Shown: positions 26,038 to 26,264 of the stretch, piece after piece
Position numbering within the stretch: position 1 is the first letter of the stretch
Layout: every line of letters begins with the position of its first letter
Assembly: GCA_025936205.1 (NCBI GenBank)
Contig: JAICTU010000030.1
Location: 1-31,649, forward strand
Source: Polyangiaceae bacterium
GTDB lineage: Bacteria > Myxococcota > Polyangia > Polyangiales > Polyangiaceae
Length of the DNA: 31,649 nt
Direction: 5' to 3'
The notes under the pieces: generated by a model
Seen by the model: the letters and a program-made list of their open reading frames with translations, nothing else
Told to the model about the DNA's origin: nothing
The model's database searches: none
Position numbers and translations under genes: made by a program

Positions 26038-26103
26038 ATGTCCCAGGCTCTGCTCGCGCTGCTGCTTTTGCCGCTCCTGCTTACCAAGGCGGGAGAGGTC
26101 TAG
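26038..26103 (+). CDS. Leucine-rich leader peptide of leuA
   Basis: ATG at 26038 opens a 21-codon frame ending in TAG at 26101-26103. Nine codons are Leu (26050, 26053, 26059, 26062, 26065, 26068, 26074, 26077 and 26080, first base each), in a mix of CTG, CTC, CTT and TTG. The peptide begins MSQALLALLLLPLLL. Such density just upstream of leuA is the hallmark of ribosome-mediated leucine attenuation. The last codons (K-A-G-E) overlap the first pairing segment of the attenuator. The ribosome binding site is poor (GTGGG at eight bases), which leaves near-leaderless translation possible. Confidence 0.75.
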   Translation: MSQALLALLLLPLLLTKAGEV

Positions 26104-26264
26104 CGCGCTTTCAGTCCGCACCCTGTCATTCGCAGCCACTGAAATCGCCCTCTCCCGCCGGACCCCGAAGGTAGCCAGCGGGAGGACTCAGTTTGGTCCG
26201 CCGTCTCGGCTCCCTGTGCGGTTTCCCCACTTTTTTCGCCGCGTGCGAGGGGAGAGGGTTTTTT
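26088..26264 (+). promoter_or_regulatory. Leucine attenuator (transcription termination switch)
   Basis: Segment A, 26088-26098 (GGCGGGAGAGG, inside the leader ORF), is an 11-bp perfect complement of segment B, 26149-26159 (CCTCTCCCGCC). Segment D, 26250-26258 (GGGAGAGGG), pairs perfectly over 9 bp with B, 26148-26156, and is followed by TTTTTT at 26259-26264. B can therefore pair with A or with D but not both. A ribosome that finishes the leader covers A and lets B-D form a terminator. One stalled at early Leu codons leaves A free to take B. Extra stems: TTTCAGT/ACTGAAA at 26109-26144 and a third partner for B at 26178-26184 (GCGGGAG). Confidence 0.7.

Follow-up and report, generated by a model that had tools for sequence, protein, structure and literature searches.

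The region upstream of leuA was analysed in a stretch of 31,649 nucleotides (nt) of DNA, referred to here as the window, from a Polyangiaceae bacterium (GenBank assembly GCA_025936205.1, contig JAICTU010000030.1, positions 1 to 31,649 of the forward strand). A short open reading frame (ORF) rich in leucine codons lies ahead of the gene, followed by RNA segments that can pair in alternative ways and by a run of T residues (Table 1). An initial annotation had interpreted this arrangement as a leucine attenuator, and the results presented here support that interpretation. The element is real and very probably functional, and ribosome-mediated leucine attenuation of leuA transcription, a known mechanism, is with high probability the way in which it would act, the long loop of its terminator being left unexplained by it.

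Organization of the leuA leader region

The downstream gene had been annotated as leuA, in agreement with its domain and family assignment; the product is of the PRK03739/leuA_yeast type, and its closest database proteins include a 98%-identical 2-isopropylmalate synthase from a Polyangiaceae bacterium. Among the matches listed, about 50 close LeuA homologues have identities of 72-99%, most of them encoded on metagenome contigs. Translation of the leader ORF gives MSQALLALLLLPLLLTKAGEV, with leucine at nine of its 21 codons, as had been indicated. Two of these nine codons are CTT, which is among the rarer leucine codons and accounts for 3 of the 193 leucine codons in four genes of the window.

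Table 1. Coordinates of the leuA leader, its putative regulatory segments and adjacent features in the window
Feature	Position	Strand	Details
-35-like box	25998..26003	+	TTGCAT; weak consensus match; position matches the boxes of relatives
-10-like box	26021..26026	+	TAGGCT; leader ATG 11 nt downstream
Leader peptide ORF	26038..26103	+	21 codons; Leu at codons 5, 6, 8-11 and 13-15
Region 1	26074..26082	+	Leu codons 13-15, CTCCTGCTT; pairing possible with 26087-26095
Region 2 (A), 5' strand of antiterminator	26088..26098	+	GGCGGGAGAGG; within leader codons 17-21
Region 3 (B), strand common to antiterminator and terminator	26148..26159	+	
B:D terminator loop	26156..26250	+	95 nt
Loop block	26216..26236	+	GTGCGGTTTCCCCACTTTTTT; 20 of 21 bases identical to locus L116
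Alternative local hairpin	26226..26258	+	Takes D, abuts T6; -14.5 kcal/mol; 4 of 13 pairs G-U
Region 4 (D), 3' strand of terminator	26250..26258	+	GGGAGAGGG; pairs with 26148-26156
T6 tract	26259..26264	+	Directly 3' of D; also present in L116
Likely leuA ribosome-binding site	26348..26353	+	GAGGAG; from sequence; conserved in L116
leuA	26362..28077	+	2-isopropylmalate synthase with LeuA allosteric domain, 571 amino acids (aa)

Segment A and the stretch 26149-26159 (CCTCTCCCGCC) form 11 perfect pairs, as described in the initial annotation, and D was found to be followed directly by the T tract. The leader ORF had been thought to end inside A, which is not the case: A lies entirely within the ORF and ends 2 nt before its stop codon. 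The nine perfect pairs proposed between B and D were also confirmed, but they use base 26148, so that B extends one base beyond the limit first given to it. In addition, leucine codons 13-15 can pair with A over nine bases, with a mean pair probability of 0.87 in the fold without ribosome coverage and with B still unmade, and because of this the window presents the complete 1-2-3-4 layout of classical attenuators. Of the features by which such attenuators are recognized, a leucine-rich leader, mutually exclusive antiterminator and terminator, and a terminator with a T tract before the gene are found in it.

Conservation of the element in related genomes

A total of 140 upstream regions of LeuA genes, the window included, were scanned by fixed rules; 66 of them were loci drawn from the phylum of genome G001, which we infer to be that of myxobacteria. 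The element was identified in 36 regions, corresponding to the window, locus L047 and 34 of the 66 phylum-drawn loci, and in none of the 1,400 sequences obtained in ten rounds of shuffling. Locus L102, where A fits poorly (four mismatches), and L045, whose upstream sequence is missing, were excluded from this count, and the copies are partly from close relatives and hence non-independent. When the most leucine-rich ORF spanning A was taken as the leader in each case, 35 leaders with 4-12 leucines were obtained from the 36 copies, and in 25 of these copies the distance from the first base of A to the leader end was 16 nt. LeuA genes were also sought in other collections: the viral collection contained a single locus, without its upstream part, the plasmid collection gave matches of 60-80% DNA identity, none spanning more than 80% of the gene, and no match was obtained in the 33 genomes of the family of G191.

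The nearest genome found was G475 (locus L116), with a LeuA 91% identical to that of the window. Its leader, MAQARLALLLLPLLLTKAGEV, retains eight of the nine leucine codons, and A, B, GGAGAGGG and the T tract are unchanged, with insertions and deletions in the rest of the leader RNA and the spacer; the 9-bp hairpin between regions 1 and 2 (1:2) is present in both. Covariation was evaluated in an alignment (A2) of 21 copies, limited to segments that could be traced to their loci with a known strand, and from which the window and loci L116, L102, L109, L135 and L148 were excluded. In the B:D helix, 97.4% of the cells were paired and 5 of the 11 pairs had changed on both sides, while the values for the A:B helix were 94.3% and 4 of 11; these percentages are biased upward by the choice of rows according to A/B/D complementarity, the two-sided changes being more telling. 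Sliding the partner strands lowered the values of both helices, the real ones being above all slid controls. The leucine-rich leader and A/B/D segments with compensatory changes that the initial annotation had proposed to look for upstream of leuA in relatives were thus found. The layout is thus not confined to the window but recurs through the phylum-drawn set, and it is the long loop of the terminator, already noted in the initial annotation, that is peculiar. Many compact copies have a stem lengthened by AAA/TTT and CGCG pairs.

In the window, 6 of the 12 bases of the two promoter-like boxes agree with the sigma-70 consensus. Their counterpart in L116 is TTGCAC-N17-TAGGGT, and the boxes of relatives, at the same place, have the form TTGAC-N17-TAnnnn. 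Among the 35 copies with a leader ORF, the start codon was located 6-12 nt past the -10 box of a promoter with at most five mismatches in 29, compared with 52 of 1,750 shuffles, and 18 nt past it in one more. This closeness of the boxes to the leader start in most copies indicates that the leaders of this element are probably nearly leaderless, with transcription presumably starting where the boxes would place it.

A covariance model (R1) was built from the 21 copies of A2, the window and L116 being kept out of training. It found the window with 37.8 bits (E=1.6e-9) and L116 with E=2.4e-9, and gave matches in 28 of another 40 loci of the phylum-drawn set, in each case with the better score in sense orientation; in L102 and L109 the match covered the terminator half only. 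Matches with E<=0.001 were present in 60 of the 282 genomes of the phylum, a number that includes antisense matches of the palindromic terminator. In a search of 79 sources, 73 outside the phylum-drawn set and 6 within it, values of E<0.001 were obtained for L116, L065 (1.4e-5) and L048 (6e-4 in sense and 2e-5 in antisense orientation), and values between 0.001 and 0.1 for L005, L016, L042, L045 and L007.

Fourteen loci, partly picked from genomes without a LeuA match, were inspected among 30 returned with this model, and in six of them a gene downstream of the match could be read on the sense strand. One (L164) has a LeuA like that of the window, and the other five (L166, L171, L176, L177 and L178) have the element upstream of an enzyme of 385-417 aa without the LeuA allosteric domain. 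The best NCBIfam models for these shorter enzymes are those of leuA_bact-type 2-isopropylmalate synthases, with scores below the curated cut-offs, and the HCS_D2 domain is present. The position of the element before them suggests that a single RNA switch may be used for two distinct enzymes, LeuA and a shorter isopropylmalate/homocitrate-synthase-like enzyme, in at least five genomes.

Further leader types were observed upstream of leuA. Loci L103, L109 and L135 represent a subtype of the element whose leaders end in (Q/K)REEVxxA; in these, 26 nt lie between the start of A and the end of the leader, and A and B are further apart (64-139 nt). A different near-leaderless leader (e.g. MSVPRARSLRPCLGLRPGGLCARC) precedes leuA in L118, L119, L120, L121 and L123, from large genomes of the search in the family of the window; it contains two or three CTA leucine codons in four of these loci and one in L121, and in four of them segments with a G-run, a C-run and a G-run were seen by eye downstream, which suggests a second type of attenuator. 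Lastly, the leucine-run leaders ending in GCRVL, GCRVR or GCRVQ upstream of leuA in L059, L061, L062, L064, L067, L078 and L080 make up a separate family, mostly from relatives of Rhizobium.

Predicted switching and the long terminator loop

The effect of a ribosome on the leader RNA was modelled by equilibrium folding with part of the leader covered, and the mutual exclusion of A:B and B:D anticipated from the sequence was reproduced, the folds switching from one pairing to the other depending on ribosome coverage. With coverage to 26115, corresponding to a ribosome at the stop codon, B:D had a probability of 0.99 and A:B of 0.00, in line with the idea that completing the leader would cover A and allow termination. 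With coverage to 26083, corresponding to a stall in the leucine run, the values were 1.00 for A:B and 0.00 for B:D, whether D had been made or not. Equivalent results were obtained with L116 (1.00 and 0.00 for A:B and B:D in the stalled state, 0.00 and 0.95 at the stop). The release of A by stalling was therefore borne out by the fold, but because of the 1:2 hairpin a stall on the very first leucine codons may not free A, and one at about codons 10-11 would be expected to do so best. Coverage to 26096, mimicking a stall at the last leucine codons, still left B:D as the prevailing structure (0.98), which points to earlier codons, about 8-11, as those that should be useful for control; the placement of the control codons makes use of the ribosome footprint.

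The loop between B and D is 84 nt long in L116 and 11-17 nt in the other 34 of the 36 copies. When B is unavailable, D of the window pairs with 26226-26237 in the local hairpin listed in Table 1. The competing hairpin of L116 involves a different partner stretch and stops short of the T tract. One could speculate that, in the lineage of the window, the loop of the terminator acquired a module of approximately 70-80 nt that is now a working part of the switch. It would delay formation of B:D, thereby giving the antiterminator longer to form, and would contain both the conserved block at 26216-26236 and stretches competing with B for D, so that D would have two possible partners, but we consider this rather doubtful.

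Proposed attenuation, competing explanations and known systems

In the mechanism that we favour, RNA polymerase would start just 5' of the leader ATG and a ribosome would load on the nearly leaderless transcript. If charged tRNA-Leu is scarce, the ribosome would stall in the leucine run, masking region 1 and leaving A free; A would then pair with B as soon as the latter is made, D would be deprived of its main partner and transcription would run into leuA. With ample leucine, the ribosome would reach the stop codon and cover A, allowing B:D to form and transcription to stop at the T tract. The presence and conservation of its parts, together with the compensatory changes and the switching observed in the folds, are the reasons for considering the element a very probable ribosome-mediated attenuator.

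Several results weigh against this proposal. The fold of the ribosome-free RNA varies with its 3' end, so that an RNA ending at 26264 gives A:B with a probability of 0.95 and the best structure for 26030-26275 combines 1:2 and B:D. In 23 of the 27 copies folded, B:D prevails at equilibrium even when stalling leaves A free, unlike in the window, L116, L092 and L125; the switch in the 23 must then be kinetic, judging from these models. The 1:2 helix, evaluated in one fixed register in the 21 relatives, has 71.3% of its cells paired and weak covariation, and the T tract, intact in the window and L116, is broken up in relatives (TTTCGCGTTT-like). The match of R1 to the window corresponds to the leader/A/B part, the D strand being misplaced in the 26180s, where most of its pairs are non-standard, as the true D lies on the far side of the long loop, at 26250. 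There was no match to this model at E<=0.1 in 12 of the 40 further phylum-drawn loci, nor any match in L118-L121 and L123. As for the promoter, five of the 35 copies have more than five mismatches, and both the window and L116 (six each) belong to this group. A loop of 95 nt is also long for an intrinsic terminator, and the local hairpin at 26226-26258 could itself terminate transcription when B is occupied, according to the fold, which would blunt antitermination.

This same hairpin leads to a different explanation, in which the leader and A:B would be relics, the hairpin and the T tract would constitute a constitutive terminator and leuA would be expressed from a promoter located further downstream. 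A simple terminator scan indeed chose the local hairpin and passed over B:D (one found versus 0.6 expected in shuffled sequences), and the hairpin forms in the fold whenever B is unavailable. It is hard to reconcile this with the situation in L116, where A, B and the core of D are identical and eight leucine codons have been kept while the competing hairpin differs and lies off the T tract. A consensus scan of 25850-26400 gave no sigma-70 promoter either, which is a point against a downstream promoter but applies equally to the one proposed for the leader. Overall, we find such a combination of relics and constitutive terminator very unlikely. A similarly low probability is given to a translational switch resembling the actinobacterial LEU element, in which the run of leucine codons would pair with the leuA ribosome-binding site without any control of termination. 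A possible pairing of CTCCT (26074-26078) to AGGAG (26349-26353) was seen by eye, but this 5-bp match is exceeded by the nine pairs of 1:2 and the 11 of 2:3. In addition, B:D is a conserved stem resembling a terminator and showing two-sided changes, and 103 nt separate the end of D from leuA.

The remaining explanation, that the complementarity arose by chance in GC-rich DNA, deserves practically no credit. It was evaluated by keeping the leader fixed and shuffling 26104-26270 by dinucleotides 20,000 times. Single pairings do occur under these conditions: a 9-nt A:B in 703 shuffles, a perfect 11-nt A:B in 42, and a perfect 9-nt B:D adjoining at least five T residues in 13. However, the joint pattern of overlapping 8-nt A:B and 7-nt B:D was never obtained, and that with 7 nt in each appeared in 6 shuffles. 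An ATG-initiated ORF of at most 45 codons with at least nine leucines was present in 12 of 5,000 shuffles of 25860-26361. Since these tests on the window were chosen after the sequence had been seen, the independent test is conservation, and the presence of the element in relatives, together with its absence from the shuffled upstream regions and the significance of the R1 match described above, leads us to reject a chance origin.

Attenuation by the leucine leader leuL is a classic case in enteric bacteria, and the attenuator proposed here follows the same logic of a leucine-rich leader peptide, mutually exclusive RNA segments and a terminator before a leu gene. It differs in the probable near absence of an untranslated 5' region, in the 95-nt B:D loop and in the leuA_yeast/PRK03739 type of the gene. 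At the sequence level the comparison was made by a scan against Rfam 15, which gave no family above the gathering threshold for the window and 11 loci, nor for another 11 loci; two matches at chance level (E 0.5 and 0.9) were far under the thresholds. The leaders of trpL in Sinorhizobium meliloti and of ilvBNC in Corynebacterium glutamicum are leaderless. They share with the present element an amino-acid leader peptide whose 5' untranslated region is short or absent, and differ in the amino acid and in the taxa concerned. Both are reported as attenuators based on leader peptides (PMC7298713; PMC11857589). The LEU element of actinobacteria also has a leader with a leucine run upstream of leuA, and is described as a pseudoknot in which the Shine-Dalgarno box takes part in the base stem, with classical attenuation being thought unlikely by its authors (PMC1262725). 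The structure found here, a terminator/antiterminator pair, differs from that description; of the LEU element, the base stem was looked for by eye in the window and gave 5 bp. No leucine attenuator reported for myxobacteria was found in the literature, of which subscription journals were thinly covered; a 2010 survey by Lopatovskaya that compares attenuation systems, cited in PMC4833913, may contain an earlier prediction.

Elsewhere in the window, the minus strand at 28738-31158 carries two glycosyltransferase genes, EpsE/EpsU-like and with matches below the curated cut-offs, of the kind involved in exopolysaccharide synthesis.

This work extends leucine attenuation to relatives of myxobacteria, in the form of a sequence-conserved and apparently near-leaderless family. 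The covariance model R1 could enter RNA annotation, and the oversized loop represents a natural test of the effect of loop length on the balance between antitermination and termination.
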